Below, piece by piece: positions 2,855-31,112 of a stretch of DNA of 64,000 bases. The notes below the pieces were generated by a model. That model was not told where the DNA came from and did no database searches. It was given only the letters and a program-made list of their open reading frames with translations. The stretch comes from Gimesia aquarii (lineage in GTDB: Bacteria > Planctomycetota > Planctomycetia > Planctomycetales > Planctomycetaceae), in assembly GCF_007748175.1 (NCBI RefSeq), contig NZ_CP037422.1, positions 3,044,020 through 3,108,019 on the forward strand, in the 5' to 3' direction. Position numbers and translations under genes: made by a program. Each line of letters opens with the position of its first letter. Within the stretch, counting starts at the first letter, position 1.

Positions 2855-3073
2855 GTGTCACGCTTACGCAAAATATACCAGGACTGCGACGTTTTCACAA
2901 AAGCGGAAGCGCTCGTCGACAAATCACGAGCACGTGCCGAAGAACTGGCAGAAAGCGTCGACAACGAAGATTTCAAACAATTACTGAAATTCTTCTGCGA
3001 AACCGTCCTGGCCGAAGAAACCCCCGAAGAAAAACCAGAGCCCAACGTGCTGATGCCACAACCGATTAGTTAA
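2855..3073 (+). pseudogene. Small ORF resembling the C-terminal end of a polyprenyl synthetase
   Basis: A GTG-started 72-residue frame follows the immunity gene after 31 bases. It reads KAEALVDKSRARAEELAESV followed by a segment ending FFCETVLAE. This resembles the last helices of trans-isoprenyl diphosphate synthases, in which a K.EAL...AR..AE.L repeat precedes a short hydrophobic helix. The catalytic DDxxD regions are missing. Its GC content is visibly higher than the genes on both sides. It may be a displaced gene fragment captured during cassette rearrangement, or a real small protein. I lean to a fragment. Confidence 0.4.
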
Positions 3074-3206
3074 CTACTTCGATCGTTTCTATCTGGTTTG
3101 ATCAATATCACGATTGAAATATGCCATTACCGATGTGTTCCAGCCTATAGGGAGGAGGAACTCAATTTTCGGTTCCTAGTATCTCACATACGAGCACCAT
3201 TGAACC

Positions 3207-3893
3207 ATGCTAACCGACCATGCGGAATTTAGTTTTTATATATTAGATTTTACTGAATTATTAGATGCCATAAAGCATACTTTGGAAATAGTATCAAATA
3301 CTTGCGATTCCTTCTCACCAGAAATCATTGTTAACGATTTAAAAGATTGGCTTTTACTAGAAAAAACAGATCTAAATTTAGAATTGTCAAAATATGTCTG
3401 GTCTTTTCTAGGATTTAACATTTCAAATTCACACAAAAAATATAAGTCTCAATTGAAAAAGAAATTGTCAAACCATTGTGTAGAACGAAAAATAATTAAT
3501 TTTATTTGGAGTCATCCTGTTGATTACTACAAATACCAAATTTCTTGGACTAAAGATGATTTGTTATTTCGGCATGGAACGCCTCCACTTGCTACTGCCA
3601 GAGGCATTTGTCATGTGAAAAAAGGAATGATTCATCATCCTCTTAAAGAATTATCGCTGGAAGAAAGAAAACGACGTAATGATTTTACTTGTTTTAACTT
3701 AAAAAGTCATCCTAATAAAATCACTCCATCATTTTTGGGTTGGGAGATAGGAATATTTCTCGGATTATTCCAACTCGACTATTATCTTTCTTCTCAGTGT
3801 GATGAAATTATTGCTAACCGAGACATTCATCCAGATGAAATAGAACAAAAACTCTTGAAATTAATATTACTGGAAGGAACAGATTCAGAATAA
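3207..3893 (+). CDS. Hypothetical protein, possible orphan immunity protein
   Basis: This is a 228-residue, AT-rich, soluble protein of no recognised family. It begins MLTDHAEFSFYILDF and has a helical N-terminal half. A central LFRHGTPPLATARG block is followed by a His-rich GMIHHPL. It stands between the copy 2 immunity gene and the leader of copy 3 and has no toxin tip immediately in front of it. Composition and location are those of the other immunity genes, so an orphan immunity protein whose toxin tip was lost is a reasonable guess. No ribosome binding site is convincing. Confidence 0.45.
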   Translation: MLTDHAEFSFYILDFTELLDAIKHTLEIVSNTCDSFSPEIIVNDLKDWLLLEKTDLNLELSKYVWSFLGFNISNSHKKYKSQLKKKLSNHCVERKIINFIWSHPVDYYKYQISWTKDDLLFRHGTPPLATARGICHVKKGMIHHPLKELSLEERKRRNDFTCFNLKSHPNKITPSFLGWEIGIFLGLFQLDYYLSSQCDEIIANRDIHPDEIEQKLLKLILLEGTDSE

Positions 3894-21345: not shown

Positions 21346-22476
21346 TTAAAGTCTAAAATCAGCGAGGACGGGGGCGTGGTCAGAGGCAGCGTTGGTCCAT
21401 CGGGTGACCGTGCTGAATTGGGTTTCATTATCGATATCCGGATCACTGGCTGTGAGCCGATCCAGTTTGTACATGCCACGTCGTTCCACGCCGGCACTGA
21501 TGAAACGATCTTTTAACGGTTTCGAAACAAGTACATAGTCGATCTGCTCAAAGCTGTTGTAATGGTAAGTCCAGCGTTTTGCGGGATGATTTGGAAATTG
21601 TAATTCCAGTACATCGTATAAATAGCGGACGTCCATCAGCGGTTTCAAAGGACCGCTATTGGGGGTATCATTCAAATCCCCGGCGACCACCACCCAGTCG
21701 TTTCTCAAATCATACTTCTTCAAAATATCCGCAATTGCCTTTGCCTGACGTTTTCTGCGCGCATCTGCTGTTCCGCTATAATCATAGCCTTTGCTTTTTA
21801 AGTGATTACAGAGCACGTACAGACTCTTACCATTAGGTAATATCACTTCGTATTCCGGGCAATCGCGACTGAAGGTTTTACTCCTGCTGGTGCCGTCAAA
21901 CATGTGCGTCCAGATTCCTCCGAGTGGATATTTACTGTATAACCCTACGTCAATTCCACGTCGATCGTTGCCATCAAGCAACATCTCATAGCGATATTTG
22001 GAACCGAGAACATCCGTGTCAAAGCGTTTCAATCCCGGTCGATTATCTGCTTCCACGATACAGGCAACGTCCGCATTCACTTTACGGATCACCTTACCTG
22101 TATTCTCTCTTCCGACCTTGGAGAACTTTGCTTTAATAAATTCCACGGTTAAATCACAATCGCCAATTCCGGAGGCCTTGACGCCAACGATTTTTCTTTG
22201 CCGCCTCTTCCACAGCTTACTACCGCGATCCTCACGAATCTTGATATATTTTTTCAACGGCTGTTTATTGTTCGCAGGATCACCTTTCTCAAATTCCTTA
22301 ACGAGTCTGGTTTTGTCAGCGGCAGTGTACGTTCTCTTTTCCAGAATCTTGCGAAACGCACCAATTCGCTTCAGCAGGTCATCACCAATCGACTTATCCT
22401 GAAAGTTAAAAACCTTTAGCCGTTCAAACAAATTTTCCACATTAAAACTGGCAACTCGAAACTGGGTCTGGGGCAT
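21346..22476 (-). CDS. Endonuclease/exonuclease/phosphatase-fold nuclease inside the DISARM locus
   Basis: The 376-residue product opens FRVASFNVENLF, has ACIVEADN near residue 140, LCNHLKSKG near 225, VVAGDLNDTPNSGPL near 265 and ends SDHAPVLADF. These are the N, E, H, D-x-N and S-D-H motifs of the DNase I-like EEP family, so it should be metal-dependent and active on DNA or on a phosphoester. There is no signal peptide, so it acts in the cytoplasm. EEP nucleases are not part of the standard DISARM set. Its position between drmMI and drmA, on the same strand, suggests an accessory nuclease, but a 322-base gap separates it from drmMI. Confidence 0.82.
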   Translation of the reverse strand: MPQTQFRVASFNVENLFERLKVFNFQDKSIGDDLLKRIGAFRKILEKRTYTAADKTRLVKEFEKGDPANNKQPLKKYIKIREDRGSKLWKRRQRKIVGVKASGIGDCDLTVEFIKAKFSKVGRENTGKVIRKVNADVACIVEADNRPGLKRFDTDVLGSKYRYEMLLDGNDRRGIDVGLYSKYPLGGIWTHMFDGTSRSKTFSRDCPEYEVILPNGKSLYVLCNHLKSKGYDYSGTADARRKRQAKAIADILKKYDLRNDWVVVAGDLNDTPNSGPLKPLMDVRYLYDVLELQFPNHPAKRWTYHYNSFEQIDYVLVSKPLKDRFISAGVERRGMYKLDRLTASDPDIDNETQFSTVTRWTNAASDHAPVLADFRL

Positions 22477-22798: not shown

Positions 22799-25700
22799 TT
22801 AAAACAGATCGCGCTGGTCGGGGTTCTTCTTTTTTTTGCGTGTCGTTTTGGTTTTCTGTTTTGGTTTTGTCTTCTCGGTGGAGCCGACACCAGTGAGGAG
22901 TTCTTCCTGGTGGCGTTGTTCGTTGAGTTCCAGCAGGCGGGCGAGGACTTCGTCGCGGAATTCATCAGGCCAGCGCAGCCGCCACGGCTTTTTCTTCTTC
23001 GACTTCTTGGCGCCTTCGGTGTCCTCTTCTTCCTCGTAGTCCAGCAGAAATTCACACGTCGCCGACTCCGCCAGATCCTCCCAGCCATATGCCCGCAGCA
23101 CCGCCCGGTCCATCTCGTCATGCAGCTCGCGCAGCTTGATAATTTCCGGAGATTTTTCGTGAGGGTCGTGGAACCGGTTGTAGGTTTTTGTGAGACCTTC
23201 GTTATTTTTAACTAATAGATCCTCACGAAAATCATAATATTCGAGTCCAGCATTCTCCAAATTGTTGCAAGACTCCTGACAACTATTAAAAAGTTCTGGA
23301 AAGGCAAAAGTTTCAAAGCAATCTGAAGGCGTATAACGTAACCTATCTTCCAACGATGATCCAAAAAAACGAGCCCAGATCTCATGAGGCCGAGATTGTA
23401 GAACCGCAAACCAGAAATAGTCACAAAGTGGAAAAACAGCTAACGCATGTGAAAATACGGATTCCGATGGCATAAAAACAAATGATAGGTCTTTACTATG
23501 TAATATAGTCACTAAAACCCGATCGAGTCCTTGACTTGCCAGCTTAAGCTCAGGCCGCGGACGAATGAATTGCCACCATTTCTCTTTAGCTCCTTTATCT
23601 TTTTGAGCCAGACGCTCTGGTTTTACTTTTTCTTCTATAATTTTCATTAACTCTGGCCAACCAGACCGTGCTTCTTCTTCTGTTCTTTCACCAAAGTTTA
23701 TCACAAAACGGTGGTTTTCATGTGTAGGACTTGTATTGATTTCCTCACCGCCTATGTATGGAAATATACAATTTGAATTTCGACTATTTTCTTTTATCAA
23801 TCTTTTCATTTCAGAAACGGGTGTAGCAATACCTTTCGAATCTGTATCATCAAAGGTAAAACCCATTCCCAACACAATACTACCTTGAAAACTCTTTCCT
23901 GCATTCGTAATCAGCCGCGCAGGATCATCATTTCCACCTCGATGAAAAAGAAAAGCTGTGATATTTTCTACTGTCACATTGTTTAATGTTCTTTGGGCAA
24001 AGAAGCTGCCTTTATAAATATGCAAAATGCTTACTATAACGGCTGCTAAGCCTGGCCACTTGACTCGACGTCGAGCATGATAGATATTTCCATTATTTGA
24101 GCAGATCCAACGTAGTCCAGTAGATCGAGTATCACCCTGACCAATCGTATTCGTGGCAATTAATCCCAAAGTAGCATTGCTTCTAAGCCAACCGAACGAA
24201 GCCCGAAAGAAATGCGAAACTAAATCAGCATTACCGTGACTTTTAGGATGAGACTCCATTAACCAGTCAAGATAATTTGTACGGTTTCCACTTATAACAG
24301 TATTCTTCCCAGCAAATGGTGGGTTCCCGACAAACGCATCAAACCCAGGATTCACGCGTGAAAAGACTTCGGGAAATTCAATCTCCCAGTGAAAGGGGGA
24401 GAGTGGGTGTTCGCCCCGTTGTAACTCCGCTGCTGCGGCAGCGACCGGGCCGCGTTTGTTGATGTCGTGGCCGCTTTCGTACCAGTCGGAAACTTGCTCG
24501 AACAGTTCCTCGCAGCGGGTTTCGCGTTCTCTCTTTTTCTTGCCCGCAAAAAAGGCACTGACGCAGGCATCGCCGGTCAAACGGACGACGTTCAACGCTT
24601 CCTCTGTCAGCGCCATGCGTTGTTCCTGGTCGCGATAGGGGGTGTCTTCGCGGGCGTTCAGAATTTTCGCCCGGGTGGCGGTTGCCTGGTCGAGCAGTTT
24701 TTGAATCCGGCCTTCATCAAATCGCTTCTGTTTTTTCGGTTCCCAGTGGAAGCCGATGATCTGTTCGCGGGTCAGGCCGACCAGCGAATCGCCGGCACGC
24801 AGAGAGTGATCCAGGAAGGTAAAGGGATGATCTTTGGCCAGCGTCACCAGCCAGAGCGACAGCTTGGCCAGGTCGACGGCCATTTCATTCTTATCGACAC
24901 CGTACAGACACCGCTGCGCCACCAGCCGGCGGGCATACAGCAGTTCGTCTTCATCGGGGGGAATGTCGGTCGGCACCAGATCGTGGGCGTACCAGGCCTT
25001 GACCAGTTCATCTCCCAACTGGCGGCAGGTCTCCACCAGAAACGCACCACTCCCCATTGCCGGATCACAGACTTTCAACTCCAGGATCTGGGAGGGGTGA
25101 GGCGTGCCGACGGCGCGGGCGGCCTGCACCAGTTCAATGGCTTTCTCCGACTGTTCGACCCGTTTCTCCAGTTGGCCTTTCGTAAAGCGTTTCTTATCGG
25201 CCCGCGTCGGCTCATAGACTTCCGGCAGTTCCGCTTCCGGATCGCACAGCTGTTTCAGAATCGGTTCCAGTGTGGTGCGGACAATCGGTTCGGTCAGCGA
25301 GCGGGGCGTGTAATGCGAACCGCTGCGGCGGCGTTCATCGGAGGGCTGCAGCACAATCGCCTCGGCAGGCACCACACGCGGCGTCACCTTTTTGGCAATC
25401 TTCTTATCGAGGGCCAGCAGCAAATCATCGATCGAGGCAGCCGCCTTAAGCGCTTTGGCGTCCGCGGCCCCCAGCTTCTGATCGGCCTGGTCCTTAAGCC
25501 ACTTCACCCGGTCTTTGCCCGGAGTCTCCAGCAGGGCTTCCAGGTCGATTGTCGCCGGTGCGCCGTGCGTTTTGACCGGTTTGATGGCAATCGATTTGCC
25601 GGTGGCGACTTCCAGGTTAAAGCCCATCACCGTTTCATACACGCTGCCGATCTGTTCGACGTCCAGCGTCCGGTAGCTGAGCCGTTCCCCATCCAGAATC

Positions 25701-26944
25701 AGCAGGTTCTGCAGCACGTTGAACACAACGCCATCCGAAATTCTGGGGATCGTTGTTAGTTGTTGGGGGTTAGTTGTTAGTTTTTGATTTCCTTCGAGGA
25801 AGGGGTAGCGTTCCGGGTCGAAGAGGTAGCCTTTGCGGGGAGGGAGTTTGAAATCGTGGTGCTGCCCCCCTTCGTAGACCAGGCGGAACAGGGTGAGCAG
25901 TTGCGACCAGGCGCCGTGCCGCTGGTTCATCGAATCGGGGAAACGGCCAGCGTCCTCACGCAGCCGATCGAACAGGCCGCTCACCGAATAATAATTGGAA
26001 TACAGCGGATCGCTGGAGAGCAGGTCCCGGTCTTCCGCATACAACACAAACACCAGCCGCAGCAGGACGGTCAGCAGTCCCGCATAGACGTGGTTCGGAT
26101 CCTCTTCCAGAATGTCGTGGAGCAGTTCCCCCTTACGGGCATCGTTGGCAGCCTGAAAACCCCACATCAGTTCATACAGCGCCGCCAGCACCTGTTCCGC
26201 CAGCTTGGTCGACACCGTATTCTGATACTTGCGGCTGTTTTCCAGAATCGCCGGCAGACGCTGGTTTTCCCCCAGCGTAAACAGCCGCTCGCTGCAGAGC
26301 AGCATATACAGGGCGGCAAACATCGGTCGGCCCGCGACCTGGATCATTTCATCGACATTAAACGTGGCATACCCACTGGTCTCTCCCCGGGGCGCGTAGA
26401 CCAGTCGCAACTGACGCCCGTTGGAGAGCAGGCCGATGGGAACCTGCGTCTCCCGGAGCAGCCGCTCAAACTTCGCCTGCGGGGCGGCGTGCCAGTGCCG
26501 ACTGCTGTCCGCTTCGCTTGGATCATCCAGCTCCGTTCCCGTGGGCAGTTCCGAAATCAGCACCATCCAGGGAATTTCCTCTTCCGCCGGTTTGAATTTC
26601 GCAACGGCGCGCGTGGGCCGGAGGGTCTCATGGTATTGCGGCAGGACGACTTCCAGAGCTGCCATAGTGCCCGTCAGTTCCCCGCGGGCAGGGATCTCCT
26701 GCAGATCTTCGGCTTCCCACTCGAGCACTTTCTGCGTGAATTCCGATAGATCACGAATTTCAGGAATCATCTCGCCTGATTCCTCACGGGGAAGACAATT
26801 CAGAAACTGCGCATGCCGGCCCATGACGTTCTGGTTGATATAACACTGCGCTTCCAGCAGCGCCGGTACAGAGACCACCAGTCCCACCGGCTGAACATAG
26901 CCAAGCCATTCAATGTGAGCGTATTCTTCAGGGGGTTTGGACAT
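22799..26944 (-). CDS. drmMI: DISARM class 1 adenine methyltransferase DrmMI
   Basis: This 1381-residue protein is related to PglX/type IIG methylases. SAM-binding motif I reads DPAMGSGAFLVE near residue 625 and the catalytic motif is NPPF near 875, marking an N6-adenine methylase. A DVEQIGSVYE block near 425 and RRRSGSHYTPRSLTEP near 535 are typical of this family. The C-terminal part should recognise the target, and it ends in a basic tail. In class 1 DISARM this enzyme marks self DNA. The N-terminal linker near residue 385-398 is built from an inserted repeat (see 25752-25787). A stand-alone BREX PglX is excluded by the drmD and drmABC neighbours. Confidence 0.9.
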   Translation of the reverse strand: MSKPPEEYAHIEWLGYVQPVGLVVSVPALLEAQCYINQNVMGRHAQFLNCLPREESGEMIPEIRDLSEFTQKVLEWEAEDLQEIPARGELTGTMAALEVVLPQYHETLRPTRAVAKFKPAEEEIPWMVLISELPTGTELDDPSEADSSRHWHAAPQAKFERLLRETQVPIGLLSNGRQLRLVYAPRGETSGYATFNVDEMIQVAGRPMFAALYMLLCSERLFTLGENQRLPAILENSRKYQNTVSTKLAEQVLAALYELMWGFQAANDARKGELLHDILEEDPNHVYAGLLTVLLRLVFVLYAEDRDLLSSDPLYSNYYSVSGLFDRLREDAGRFPDSMNQRHGAWSQLLTLFRLVYEGGQHHDFKLPPRKGYLFDPERYPFLEGNQKLTTNPQQLTTIPRISDGVVFNVLQNLLILDGERLSYRTLDVEQIGSVYETVMGFNLEVATGKSIAIKPVKTHGAPATIDLEALLETPGKDRVKWLKDQADQKLGAADAKALKAAASIDDLLLALDKKIAKKVTPRVVPAEAIVLQPSDERRRSGSHYTPRSLTEPIVRTTLEPILKQLCDPEAELPEVYEPTRADKKRFTKGQLEKRVEQSEKAIELVQAARAVGTPHPSQILELKVCDPAMGSGAFLVETCRQLGDELVKAWYAHDLVPTDIPPDEDELLYARRLVAQRCLYGVDKNEMAVDLAKLSLWLVTLAKDHPFTFLDHSLRAGDSLVGLTREQIIGFHWEPKKQKRFDEGRIQKLLDQATATRAKILNAREDTPYRDQEQRMALTEEALNVVRLTGDACVSAFFAGKKKRERETRCEELFEQVSDWYESGHDINKRGPVAAAAAELQRGEHPLSPFHWEIEFPEVFSRVNPGFDAFVGNPPFAGKNTVISGNRTNYLDWLMESHPKSHGNADLVSHFFRASFGWLRSNATLGLIATNTIGQGDTRSTGLRWICSNNGNIYHARRRVKWPGLAAVIVSILHIYKGSFFAQRTLNNVTVENITAFLFHRGGNDDPARLITNAGKSFQGSIVLGMGFTFDDTDSKGIATPVSEMKRLIKENSRNSNCIFPYIGGEEINTSPTHENHRFVINFGERTEEEARSGWPELMKIIEEKVKPERLAQKDKGAKEKWWQFIRPRPELKLASQGLDRVLVTILHSKDLSFVFMPSESVFSHALAVFPLCDYFWFAVLQSRPHEIWARFFGSSLEDRLRYTPSDCFETFAFPELFNSCQESCNNLENAGLEYYDFREDLLVKNNEGLTKTYNRFHDPHEKSPEIIKLRELHDEMDRAVLRAYGWEDLAESATCEFLLDYEEEEDTEGAKKSKKKKPWRLRWPDEFRDEVLARLLELNEQRHQEELLTGVGSTEKTKPKQKTKTTRKKKKNPDQRDLF
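25752..25787 (-). repeat. Solo copy of the S23-element terminal repeat, in frame inside drmMI
   Basis: On the minus strand the coding sequence reads CAAAAACTAACAACTAAC, then CCCCAACAACTAACAAC. It uses the same AACTAACAACTAA words as the repeats that flank the four-helix-bundle gene at 26945-27357. It is translated as QKLTTNPQQLTT between FLEGN and IPRISDGVV, and the frame is preserved. By eye this is low-complexity sequence unlike the GC-rich coding DNA around it. Confidence 0.7.
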
Positions 26945-27357
26945 TGTTGTTGTTAGTTTTTAGTTGTTAGTTTTTAGGGATTTGATCAGACCGCTTAATA
27001 GGCGGCCTACTTCTTCTACAATTGGTAGTGCTTTGTCTGTTTTGTTGATGTAACCTAAGTTCGCCGCTATTAATAATTGTGTTGTTAATTCGGCTGTGGA
27101 ACCGCGGGCGATTCCCAGGAACTGAATGAATTCCCCCGAAGAATTTCTTGCCTGTCCTTCTGCGATATTACTGGGAACGGAAACTGCAGAACGACGAATT
27201 TGAGATACCAATCCATACTTTTCATCATGGGGGAACGTCTTTGTCGTTTCATAAATATGAGTTACCATCGACATCGCCTTCTGCCAGGCAATCAACTCCC
27301 GATAATGCTTCGCCATGTCTCCTCCCAAAAAACTAAAAACCAACAACTAAAAACTAT
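26945..27357 (-). mobile_element. Putative small mobile element: four-helix-bundle gene with terminal inverted repeats
   Basis: The right end (27326-27357) carries, in minus-strand sense, AGTTTTTAGTTGTTGG followed by TTTTTAGTTTT. The left end (26945-26978) carries the inverted form, with AAAAACTAACAACTAAAAAC. Together they form imperfect terminal inverted repeats around one gene of about 119 codons. The right end supplies the TAG stop of drmD and the left end abuts the ATG of drmMI, so the element fills exactly the junction between two DISARM genes. No transposase is encoded. Mobility is inferred from the repeats and the extra copy at 25752. Confidence 0.6.
26960..27316 (-). CDS. Four-helix-bundle protein (S23 / avd-like)
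   Basis: I choose ATG 27316 (MAKHYRELIAWQKAM) because GGGAGGAG lies 5 bases upstream. A longer frame would start inside the repeat. The 118-residue protein has the family signature WQKAM near the start, FP.DEKYGL..Q.RRSAVSVPSNIAEG in pieces near residues 30-55, and EFIQFLGIARGS later. Such proteins form pentamers. One branch is encoded by 23S rRNA intervening sequences and another (Avd) serves diversity-generating retroelements, but there is no reverse transcriptase here. The last residues and stop lie inside the terminal repeat. Confidence 0.85.
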   Translation of the reverse strand: MAKHYRELIAWQKAMSMVTHIYETTKTFPHDEKYGLVSQIRRSAVSVPSNIAEGQARNSSGEFIQFLGIARGSTAELTTQLLIAANLGYINKTDKALPIVEEVGRLLSGLIKSLKTNN

Positions 27358-30300
27358 CCCGTCACTGGCCAGAGATAAACCAATCCCACCGGTTCAACGC
27401 GGCGGGATTTGACGGTGTACAGTTCCTGGATTCGTGTGGGTTCGGATTTCAGTTCTTCTTTGATCTCGTCCAGGCGTTTACCCCAGTAACGTTTGTTGGC
27501 GTTGAGCTGCTGGATTTCATCTTCTTCGTCGCCGAAATCCAGCTGCATCTGTTTCGGGTTCAATTTTGAAATACGCTTGATCGTTGAGTCGATGTGTTTC
27601 TGTTGCGTCTGCAGAATTTCCCGCATGGCTTTGGCTTCGGCCTCTCCGCGGGAAGCCAGTTTTAGTTCTGCTTCCCTGGCATATTCAGCACCCCGCGTTT
27701 CCAGATGGGGCAGGAGATCGTGAATATCCCCGGCCGCCGCCTGTTGCAGCTGGCTGATGATTTCCTGAGTCAGCTGCATGCCTCCGGCTTTCAACAGTGA
27801 ATCATCCAGCAGAGAGAGGGTTTTGGCTTCTGTGTCTTTCCCATAAGGAGTCATTGGCTTTTTACGTATTTCCGGATCGGTCCAGCGTGCGGTAACGGGA
27901 ATCAGCTCTTCATGCAGGCGGGCTGCTCCCAGACCATACAGGCACAAACGCCCCAGCAGAATCACGCGTGGAATCGAGTCTTTCGCCTGCGCAAAACAGG
28001 CCCGTGACAGGTCATGCAGCACAAAACCCTGTGCCGTGAAGCGACCGAGCAGCCGTTGAACCACGCGCTGTTCCAGGTGCAGATGGACATAATCATCTCC
28101 CACCAGTCCCGGATCTTCGAAAACGACTGGCCTGATCGGTGAGGAGTGCCGCCAGTCCCAGAGCTTCTGGTCCCGCTTACGAGGGACACGCAGAGTGTCC
28201 ATTGTCTCCGCCCAGGACGGATCCGCACCGGATCGTTCATCGATGGCAGGAAATTCGAAACAGGTCAACCCGTTTTCGCCCTGTATCTGCTGCATGCCTT
28301 CCACATCCATCAGTTGCAGGGAACTGGTAATTGCGGCCTGAAAATGTTCTTCGCTCAGCCCAATACTCTTACGCGAATTCTCCAGCAGTGTTCGCAAGCG
28401 ATCAATCTGTTCGCGCAGAGCATGCTGTCGCTCGCGAGCCGCTTCCAGGTCCTGTTCAATCGCAGAACGGCGGGAATCATCCAGGTCGGCAAACTCGATT
28501 TCACTTTCCAGCGAGTCCAGAAAATCATGCCTGATCCCCTGAGTCATCGTTTTCGCCAGATTAGAATCGATCACCTGGGAAAGGCTGCCTAGTTCTTCCT
28601 TAATCGTTTCCGTCTTGCGAACCAGCACCTGCAGAATGCGATCTTCGGGACGTTGCTGATAGACAAAATAATGACAGAAGACTTCCGGCATGGATTGCAG
28701 TTTACGGTCGATGCGACCATTCCGCTGCTCCATCCGACTGGGATTCCAGGGAACGTCGAAATGGAACAGATTGTGACAATAAGCCTGCAGGTTAAGCCCT
28801 TCGCGGGCGGCATCGGTGGCAATCAGAATACGGACCGGATGCTTACGCGGGTCCGTATTGAACGCCTTTTTGATCTCTTCCCGTTTCGGAGGGGGAGTGG
28901 GACCATGGAAGATCTGAATGCGCTGCTCAGCCTGGTCGCTGCCGGTAATCGCTGCTTCCAGGCGGCCCACCAGGTATCGCTTGGTATCATCGTATTCTGT
29001 AAAGATCAGCACGCGCGTCTCATTCCATCCGGCCCCGGCCTTTCCCAGTTCCGGACACATATTCTCTCGAATCCACTCGATCAGCTTCTCAGTGCGGGCA
29101 TCTGACTTTCCCCGGGACTGCTCCGCGACTTCGGTCATTTCATCCAGGAGTTTCTGTTCATGCGCAAACAGGTCTTTCGCCGACATGTCTTCCAAAGGCC
29201 CAAGAGTGGCTGAGGAAGCAGCTTCAAACTGGGCATCTTCCTCCGCCCGAAGCTGGTCTTCTTCGAGAGTGGCTCGATCATCATCTGAATCGACAATGCC
29301 CGTTAGCAGGTCCAATGTTCTGAGGTCATGCTCATCCGCAGCTGAAGCTTCCTGAAGTTTCTCCCACTGGCGTTTGACAGTTTTCCGATGAACTTTCAGG
29401 GTGCGTGCAAATGCTTCGATTGAGGAGAGCAGACGTTGCTGCAGACCGGTGATCAATAATCCCGAAGCCGCCTGCTTGCGTTTTGTTTCATTTTTCAGTC
29501 GTTCCTCACGTGACTCCCGATATTCCTGGAGTAAACGGGACAGACGCAGTTCCGGCGCATCAGTCGGGAGGCCGTCGATACTGATCTGTACGACGTTACG
29601 CTTCGGAAAACCTCCCTGAATTTCGCGAATGTCTTCCTTGATACGCCGCACAATAACTTCATCCCGATATTTCGCCGTGACAGGAACTCCCCGACAGAAT
29701 CGCTGCGGGTCGAGAATTTCCAACAGCGCAGAGAAACTGTTGGAGTGCCCGTTATGAGGTGTTGCTGAAAGGAAAAGCCGATGTTCAAAACGGGGTGCCA
29801 GATCGCGGACGGCACGGGTAATCTGGGAGTCAATCGCATATTTGGCACCACTGGAAGGAGCGGCATGATGCGCTTCATCCAGGATAAACAGTGATCCACC
29901 ACGGAATGTCCCCAAATGATCGCGTAGCGGGCCGGCATAAGTCTCATCGATCAGTAACCGATGCGAAACCAGAAATCGCGTGTGTGTCCCCCACGGATTG
30001 ACGCTGAAACCTCGTTCGCGTCGAACTCGTTTCATATAGTCTTTGTCGAGAATCTCAAAAGTCAGTCCAAAGCGGGCTTCCAGCTCTTCTTTCCATTGCA
30101 GGAGCATGGAAGGGGGGCAGGATACGAAGATCTCTTTGACCTTCTTGCGCAACAGCATCTCGCGGGCAATCAGCCCGGCTTCGATCGTTTTCCCCAGACC
30201 GACATCATCGGCGATAAACAGATTGACGCGAGGCAGCAGCAGCGCTTTGCGAAGGGGTTCCAGCTGATACGCGTCGAGCCGGATTCCAGCCCGGAAAGGG

Positions 30301-30617
30301 GACTGAAACAGCTTCGGATCAGTGGAAGTCACACAGTTCCACTTCAAAGTATTCAGATAGGCAGAGAAAAGTCTGGAATCGTCAAATCCTTTCGATGCGA
30401 CTTCTTCCCATGCTTCCCCAGTGAGAATCTCTGGATCTAGTTCTTTCTCCCAGAGAACTTCCAGAGGCTGCCCTTGGTTATCGTCATCAACACAAGAGAG
30501 ACGCACGAGCGTACTGTCAACCACCCGTTTGGGTTTGACGATCTCCTCGACCAGATAGGTTCGCTGCCGAACACGGGCTATTTGCCCGGGGGAAAGTGAA
30601 TCAATCAATTGGCTCAT
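27354..30617 (-). CDS. drmD: DISARM class 1 SNF2-type helicase DrmD
   Basis: I start at ATG 30617 (MSQLIDSLSPGQIARVRQR); the upstream extension begins with TTG and has no support. The product is about 1087 residues. SNF2 motifs are clear: ADDVGLGKTIEAG near residue 140, LFILDEAHHA near 240, FLSATPHNGHSNSFSAL near 280, RILIATDAAREGLNLQ near 600 and QRNGRIDR near 635. The C-terminal part holds long coiled-coil stretches with EAARERQHALREQ near 730. DrmD defines class 1 DISARM together with DrmMI. It is first in the minus-strand run, so the main promoter should lie in 30618-31112. Its stop codon comes from the flanking repeat. Confidence 0.92.
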   Translation of the reverse strand: MSQLIDSLSPGQIARVRQRTYLVEEIVKPKRVVDSTLVRLSCVDDDNQGQPLEVLWEKELDPEILTGEAWEEVASKGFDDSRLFSAYLNTLKWNCVTSTDPKLFQSPFRAGIRLDAYQLEPLRKALLLPRVNLFIADDVGLGKTIEAGLIAREMLLRKKVKEIFVSCPPSMLLQWKEELEARFGLTFEILDKDYMKRVRRERGFSVNPWGTHTRFLVSHRLLIDETYAGPLRDHLGTFRGGSLFILDEAHHAAPSSGAKYAIDSQITRAVRDLAPRFEHRLFLSATPHNGHSNSFSALLEILDPQRFCRGVPVTAKYRDEVIVRRIKEDIREIQGGFPKRNVVQISIDGLPTDAPELRLSRLLQEYRESREERLKNETKRKQAASGLLITGLQQRLLSSIEAFARTLKVHRKTVKRQWEKLQEASAADEHDLRTLDLLTGIVDSDDDRATLEEDQLRAEEDAQFEAASSATLGPLEDMSAKDLFAHEQKLLDEMTEVAEQSRGKSDARTEKLIEWIRENMCPELGKAGAGWNETRVLIFTEYDDTKRYLVGRLEAAITGSDQAEQRIQIFHGPTPPPKREEIKKAFNTDPRKHPVRILIATDAAREGLNLQAYCHNLFHFDVPWNPSRMEQRNGRIDRKLQSMPEVFCHYFVYQQRPEDRILQVLVRKTETIKEELGSLSQVIDSNLAKTMTQGIRHDFLDSLESEIEFADLDDSRRSAIEQDLEAARERQHALREQIDRLRTLLENSRKSIGLSEEHFQAAITSSLQLMDVEGMQQIQGENGLTCFEFPAIDERSGADPSWAETMDTLRVPRKRDQKLWDWRHSSPIRPVVFEDPGLVGDDYVHLHLEQRVVQRLLGRFTAQGFVLHDLSRACFAQAKDSIPRVILLGRLCLYGLGAARLHEELIPVTARWTDPEIRKKPMTPYGKDTEAKTLSLLDDSLLKAGGMQLTQEIISQLQQAAAGDIHDLLPHLETRGAEYAREAELKLASRGEAEAKAMREILQTQQKHIDSTIKRISKLNPKQMQLDFGDEEDEIQQLNANKRYWGKRLDEIKEELKSEPTRIQELYTVKSRRVEPVGLVYLWPVTG

Positions 30618-31112
30618 AAGTTTATACTCTATCACTGCTTGTAGTTGATTCTTCAGCAACTGCCAAATTTACACTGAAATACAATCGTGCACAGCCAAAG
30701 AATCAGACTACCAACAGTCGAACCAGAATGCAATCAGTAGTAATATTGGATAGATAAAGTTCCTTTACATATCAAAGTGCACTCAAAAAAGAAATCAGAT
30801 TCCTCAGTATGCTCCACAATATATGTTAAGTTGAGTGAGTTTCCTTAGAATGCCCATCAGTTAACTTATGAATGGATCAGTCAGCCACATTTTGTACGAT
30901 TCTCATTTCGATACGACGATGAATAATATTTGGTCTAGAATTCATCCGACCGAATTAATTCATATTCCATTTTGCTCACCTGTTTTCAAAAGTAAACGTT
31001 GATGAATCGTGAACCCGATTCCGAGAATCATTCTGATCTAGTTTACGACATGACACAGCTGGCTTATTCCTGGCTAAATTAGGTAGAGTAAATATTTAAA
31101 GCATTTCGACGT
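30618..31112 (-). promoter_or_regulatory. AT-rich region upstream of drmD; probable promoter region of the DISARM locus
   Basis: No gene was found in these 495 bases. The region is AT-rich and divergent between drmD (minus) and the gene at 31113 (plus), so it should carry promoters for both. I cannot assign specific boxes. There is no obvious operator palindrome, and no WYL or other regulator gene lies next to it. Confidence 0.4.

Follow-up and report, generated by a model that had tools for sequence, protein, structure and literature searches.

To our knowledge, no function is known for the S23 proteins, which are common and structurally solved, and no source is known for heptamer repeats, which are also common. 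S23 elements have been described mainly as invaders of rRNA genes. The nearest described relative of the locus analyzed here is the intervening sequence (IVS) of the Coxiella burnetii 23S rRNA gene, which is an element of ~430 bp with an S23 gene, 28-bp terminal inverted repeats and tandem GACAGAT heptamers before the S23 start codon (PMC4990558). The protein of the Coxiella element is seemingly not made in vivo (PMC4990558), which suggests that S23 may not always be needed.

Tandem heptamers of the TAACTGA type, similar in style to those of the window arms, occur in Beggiatoaceae, Cyanobacteria and Bacteroidetes, again near start codons and sometimes inside ORFs. They differ from the arrays considered here in having been described as direct repeats without a known source and without a link to S23, a term absent from the main text of the paper (PMC4679880). 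Among open-access papers, none was found to connect S23 genes with heptamer arms and with insertion outside rRNA. The REP/REPtron and TIRtron systems (RAYT/TIRYT) resemble S23 elements in placing one short gene between inverted repeats, in having small non-autonomous derivatives and in inserting within genes, but they end in REP hairpins or in TIRs of other kinds, and their gene encodes a catalytic HUH transposase (PMC3733652). The DGR accessory protein Avd (bAvd, PF22296) is a homologous pentameric four-helix bundle (PMC10053308); it differs in partnering a reverse transcriptase and a template repeat, neither of which is present at the element described below.

The window, a stretch of 64,000 nucleotides from Gimesia aquarii, contains a DISARM operon with the minus-strand gene order drmD, S23, drmMI; all features located below are on that strand. 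S23 is the only gene between drmD (27354..30659, upstream), encoding the DISARM SNF2-like helicase, and drmMI (22799..26944, downstream), encoding the DISARM methyltransferase, and the two neighbors match the PADLOC DrmD and DrmMI profiles with E = 0. The S23 gene (26960..27316) is preceded by a ribosome-binding site, GGGAGGAG (27319..27326), and encodes a 118-residue four-helix bundle of the 23S rRNA-intervening-sequence protein family (PF05635, E = 5.3e-38). With a weaker match to bAvd PF22296 (E = 1e-7), the S23/Avd-like assignment made in the initial annotation is confirmed. A relative of the protein in the PDB is 2gsc (E = 8e-27).

As the initial annotation states, the gene is bounded by inverted repeats. 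They are 31-32 nt long, 84-87% complementary and absent from shuffled windows. They are tandem arrays of degenerate heptamers rather than one fixed 12-mer. The 5' arm (about 27323/27326..27356) reads TAGTTTT TAGTTGT TGGTTTT TAGTTTT, and the 3' arm (26949..26984), its inverted copy, reads CTAAAAA CTAACAA CTAAAAA CTAACAA. When up to 2 mismatches are allowed, CTAANAACTAANAACTAANAAC has 4 matches in the window, all within the two arms, and 0 arrays of this type are expected by chance (100 shuffled windows). The drmD stop codon TAG (27354-27356) is completed by the first bases of the 5' arm, AG, and is the outer tip of this arm; the 3' arm contains the last S23 codons with the TAA and stops 4 nt short of the drmMI ATG (26944-26942). 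These coordinates agree with the initial annotation, in which one repeat gives the drmD stop, the other adjoins the drmMI ATG and the S23 gene ends within the repeat. Because the element gives drmD its stop and keeps the drmMI ATG, the DISARM operon probably still works. In the folded window RNA the arms pair as an uninterrupted outer helix of 24 bp (z = -3.9), or 29 bp including the next helix. No further S23 gene or copy of the ends was found in the closed 7.2-Mb genome, and the element is single copy.

The window element shares with the Coxiella IVS a PF05635 gene, inverted arms (31-32 nt, forming a helix of 24-29 bp) and tandem heptamers. The Coxiella element, however, lies in rRNA and is excised by RNase III, whereas the S23 elements analyzed here lie in or between protein-coding genes and have heptamers that vary among elements and agree across the two arms of each. 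Since the window element lies outside a 23S rRNA gene, it is kin to the IVS rather than an IVS in the strict sense, and by analogy it would work like its Coxiella relative. The S23 ORF stands alone between the arms; there is no transposase gene as in an insertion sequence or autonomous transposon, nor are there the REP ends and Y1 transposase gene of a REPtron.

The S23 genes surveyed came from 343 Planctomycetota genomes, of which 175 had a match, from 80 loci spread over many phyla and from viral contigs, the sample being picked via a conserved S23 motif. For each gene, the upstream flank was aligned with the reverse-complemented downstream flank, and a score of at least 28 was counted as inverted arms. 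Such arms are present at 107 of 144 S23 loci (74%), compared with 20 of 744 ORFs of the same stretches (2.7%); at this threshold 26% of the S23 loci have none. Repeats in direct orientation are far rarer at S23 loci than inverted ones. For the first 107 loci the median flank alignment score was 38 for own pairs and 16 for flanks swapped between loci. The best period is 7 in 85/107 5' arms and 84/107 3' arms, with 14-15 arms having a period of 8, and identity at a lag of 7 is 0.53 in the arms versus 0.26 in control segments. The arms are ~32 nt long and the elements span ~470 bp; G exceeds C in the 5' arm of 90% of elements, and the S23 stop codon lies inside the 3' arm in 47%. These data show that an S23 gene between inverted heptamer arrays is a general arrangement, widespread across bacteria. 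The expectation that other S23 genes would have ends like those of the window was borne out for inverted ends, which occur in many phyla, but not for a conserved AACTAACAACTAA motif. The heptamer differs per element, so a search for AACTAACAACTAA elsewhere yields mostly arrays without S23.

None of 40 sampled S23 loci is in rRNA. Insertion outside rRNA is therefore the rule and rRNA residence the exception, in line with the general insertion habit outside 23S rRNA genes that had been suggested from the window. Most elements (64/78) lie between co-directional genes; 43 of these have the same orientation as their neighbors and 21 the opposite one (p = 0.008), as expected of a gene without its own promoter. 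A search for S23 genes in annotated phages gave no match.

The heptamer varies between elements (e.g. TTAGTGG, CAGTTGT, AAGGCAT and GGACGGT), yet the arms of one element are 87% alike. Between elements whose S23 proteins are 60-70% identical the 5' arms score 15, against a background of 12 (range 12-15 below 70% identity), whereas the two arms of each element score 41. Turnover is much faster in the arms than in the S23 gene, and yet the two arms of an element remain matched; being element-specific and matched, the arms evolve in concert. Mismatches between arms comprise 107 G.U and 124 A.C pairs (p = 0.29). Selection for RNA pairing was rejected as the cause of the matching, because G.U would then outnumber A.C, and the lack of a G.U excess favors copying at the DNA level as the process by which the arms would be kept alike.

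The S23 genes of cyanobacterial plasmids were compared with related plasmids. Empty counterparts exist for 7/7 insertions examined (sites A-G), and the empty sites lack arms and gene together. Site A is occupied in plasmid C of Trichormus variabilis and empty in Nostoc linckia (97.7% identity). The empty sequence is AAAGTAATTAACAAAT, and the full site consists of AAAGTAAT, the unit arm-S23-arm, and GTAATTAACAAAT; the unit comprises both arms and the gene, its ends are exact, and GTAAT is duplicated. A base-exact target duplication is seen at this one site only, the relatives at sites B-G being too divergent (85-95% identity). A remnant of the element is present at the same site A (L228), and site G has a derivative that is bounded by arms but lacks S23 (L244). 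Other plasmid insertions are at nrdB/nrdA, at cas10/cmr3 and among conjugation genes. S23 elements insert as discrete units, arms included, between and inside genes, and S23 genes and heptamer repeats are tied into one mobile unit with empty sites and boundaries. The sharp-edged empty sites elsewhere, together with the absence of a transposase between the window arms, sustain the initial annotation in its proposal of a mobile unit of ~0.4 kb that lacks a transposase. As regards the features of MITEs, there is one base-exact duplication, GTAAT, and the arms are not common to different elements. In CRISPR-Cas operons, S23 elements were seen at cas6/cas4 of type I-D and at cas10/cmr3 of type III-B (L222, L234).

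Through several elements a long host ORF remains open in a frame other than that of S23, and in the clear in-gene cases the host frame is always offset by 2 from the S23 frame. The clearest example is a DnaE2-like error-prone polymerase, whose residues 590 and 787 align with positions 579 and 582 of E. coli Pol III alpha (5fku); the insert encodes S23 in a different frame (PF05635, E = 1e-34). In 7 genomes of a family that we take to be Brocadia-like, a Mod-type methyltransferase has an element between the motifs QPDV and VEV(H)GFDYY; the two halves of Mod are in frame in 6/7, and the host frame is open in all 4 that were fully read. At that place, Mod relatives without the element show either a plain linker or short repeats of another kind, and the same Mod ORF elsewhere holds heptamer hairpins without S23. 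With such varied short repeats, the Mod linker is a hot spot at which small repeats insert. In other species (L177, L179, L173, L175), in-frame GTCATTGCGAG...GAAGCAATCT and SPSGGGKG-type repeats were observed in this linker. Frame +2 is open in 12.3% of all S23 genes versus 1.6% after synonymous shuffling. Host proteins read through a double-coded S23 insertion are a prediction from the reading frames, and such double coding would represent an unusual way to tolerate a selfish gene. Rickettsia palindromic elements are small repeats that lie in frame in host proteins and have no gene of their own; S23 elements differ in that they encode a protein in addition to that of the host, in a separate frame.

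Heptamer arrays are not confined to S23 loci. The exact array type of the window is present at 5 places in 170 genomes of the same family, 1 with S23 and 4 without, and 1.2 Mb of one genome contains 8 arrays, of which 3 are at S23 genes and 2 form one hairpin without S23. The exact array was rejected as an S23 marker, its matches being mostly without S23. Arms are present at 74% of 144 S23 loci; they are not exclusive to S23, since solitary arrays and short hairpins lacking S23 are found as well. The arms may belong to an older class of repeats that S23 uses. In genus g107 and its relatives there are dispersed arrays of a 9-mer (TTTAAACGG-like) with many S23-less copies (L272, L306, L021). An array of this type also forms the arms of one S23 element, and a search for empty sites of two S23 loci in genus g107 was swamped by the dispersed 9-mer repeats.

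S23 is absent from the drmD/drmMI junction of all other DISARM loci seen. One genome of the same family (G130, L042 6828-6920) has a 93-bp gap with a GTAGG...CCTAC repeat, the core of which has 11 dispersed occurrences in that genome, and the DISARM locus of a Nostoc plasmid has a 14-bp gap and no S23. A DUF4435/AAA gene is found at the junction in a genome of the same genus (G029, L040 6074-7738), and in G083 another ORF (L005 about 3060-3562) is probably at the junction. The junction is a variable spot. In comparison with related DISARM loci, the conserved flank ends at ...GACGGGAT and resumes at the drmMI ATG. The initial annotation had looked to such loci for empty sites with exact boundaries. 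The gene is indeed absent from them, but the homologues are at most 82% identical, so that the base-exact ends of the window element, and any target duplication, can only be inferred.

We consider it likely that the 0.4-kb window segment is a mobile S23 element, a four-helix-bundle gene between inverted arrays of ~4-5 heptamers, which would have landed at the drmD/drmMI boundary. S23 would be the nucleic-acid-binding part coded by the element and would bind the repeats, perhaps with one heptamer per subunit. The S23 relatives in the PDB have five chains (2gsc, 2rld), and PMC10053308 cites 2gsc as a structure of five four-helix bundles; ~5 heptamers per arm would be compatible with a ring of five-fold symmetry. 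The element does not code for a recombinase, and the analysis found no partner enzyme; cutting and joining would occur in trans, by an enzyme coded outside the element. During copying, one arm may be rewritten from the other by snap-back or by a template switch at the inverted repeats. This would explain heptamer growth as well as matched arms. The binding target of S23, the mover of intervening sequences and the origin of heptamer repeats become testable. More tentatively, and as a possibility rather than an expectation, S23 elements could be a separate class of mobile DNA, with a gene for a pentameric non-enzymatic protein, heptamer arms rewritten in concert and double coding in host proteins; its footprints would be the heptamer repeats that stand alone in cyanobacteria and other bacteria, and the 23S rRNA IVS would be a special landing site.

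A different explanation has the element acting at the RNA level like the 23S IVS, with a transcript stem cut by RNase III, selection on that stem and mobility by reverse transcription. The 24-bp helix of the window transcript (z = -3.9) and the Coxiella precedent of a 28-bp stem cut by RNase III, with heptamers (PMC4990558), are consistent with this, as is the location of 64/78 elements between co-directional genes with a 43:21 bias to the same direction (p = 0.008). Against these points, arm mismatches show no G.U excess (107 vs 124 A.C), 21 elements are antisense to both neighbors and no linked reverse transcriptase has been shown, and we judge an RNA-level element unlikely. A correlation between S23 counts and the presence of reverse transcriptases was set aside because of strong confounding. 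That two independent repeat copies (heptamer STRR or REP-like) flank an immobile S23 gene by chance or recombination is highly unlikely. Arrays do exist alone, intergenic TAACTGA repeats of unknown source are abundant (PMC4679880) and one genus has dispersed multi-copy 9-mer arrays; but 74% of S23 loci have matched, element-specific inverted arms, direct orientation is rare, and empty sites lack arms and gene jointly, with site A disfavoring independence.

The mobile S23 element might instead be REPtron-like and moved in trans by a Y1/RAYT transposase, which we regard as very doubtful. REP-type repeats and S23 elements do use the same spots (the drmD/drmMI gap and the Mod linker), and the G. 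aquarii genome has 4 Y1_Tnp matches. The inverted ends of 28 Y1 genes, however, are REP hairpins, with a period of 7 in 1/18 with inverted ends, and the duplication at site A is 5 bp long, a length atypical of Y1 enzymes. It is hardly probable that the window S23 gene has long resided in DISARM as an accessory gene with a defense function and is no recent insertion. The occurrence of S23 in CRISPR operons (cas6/cas4, cas10/cmr3) and restriction-type methyltransferases, and the other genes at the junction in G029 and probably G083, would fit such a role, but S23 is absent from all other DISARM loci seen, and the same elements are also found at genes for ribonucleotide reductase, for conjugation and for DnaE2. 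An S23 gene within a DISARM or CRISPR operon need not be annotated as a defense component by default.

Planctomycetota Y1/RAYT genes lie between double REP hairpins in inverted orientation (GCCCCGAAGGGGC-like; L360, L362, L368, L382), and these genes were rejected as carriers of the same ends as S23, their ends being REP hairpins. In the DISARM cluster of the window, a gene of the endonuclease/exonuclease/phosphatase family (21346-22476) lies between drmMI and drmA. A 20-nt direct repeat (85%) at 26877-26896 and 27379-27398 flanks the window element; it codes for a PVGLV motif common to the DrmD C terminus and the DrmMI N terminus and was rejected as a target duplication, being a likeness of the proteins. 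The C-terminal part of DrmMI gives a match to a DrmD profile of PADLOC (PDLC02626) as well.
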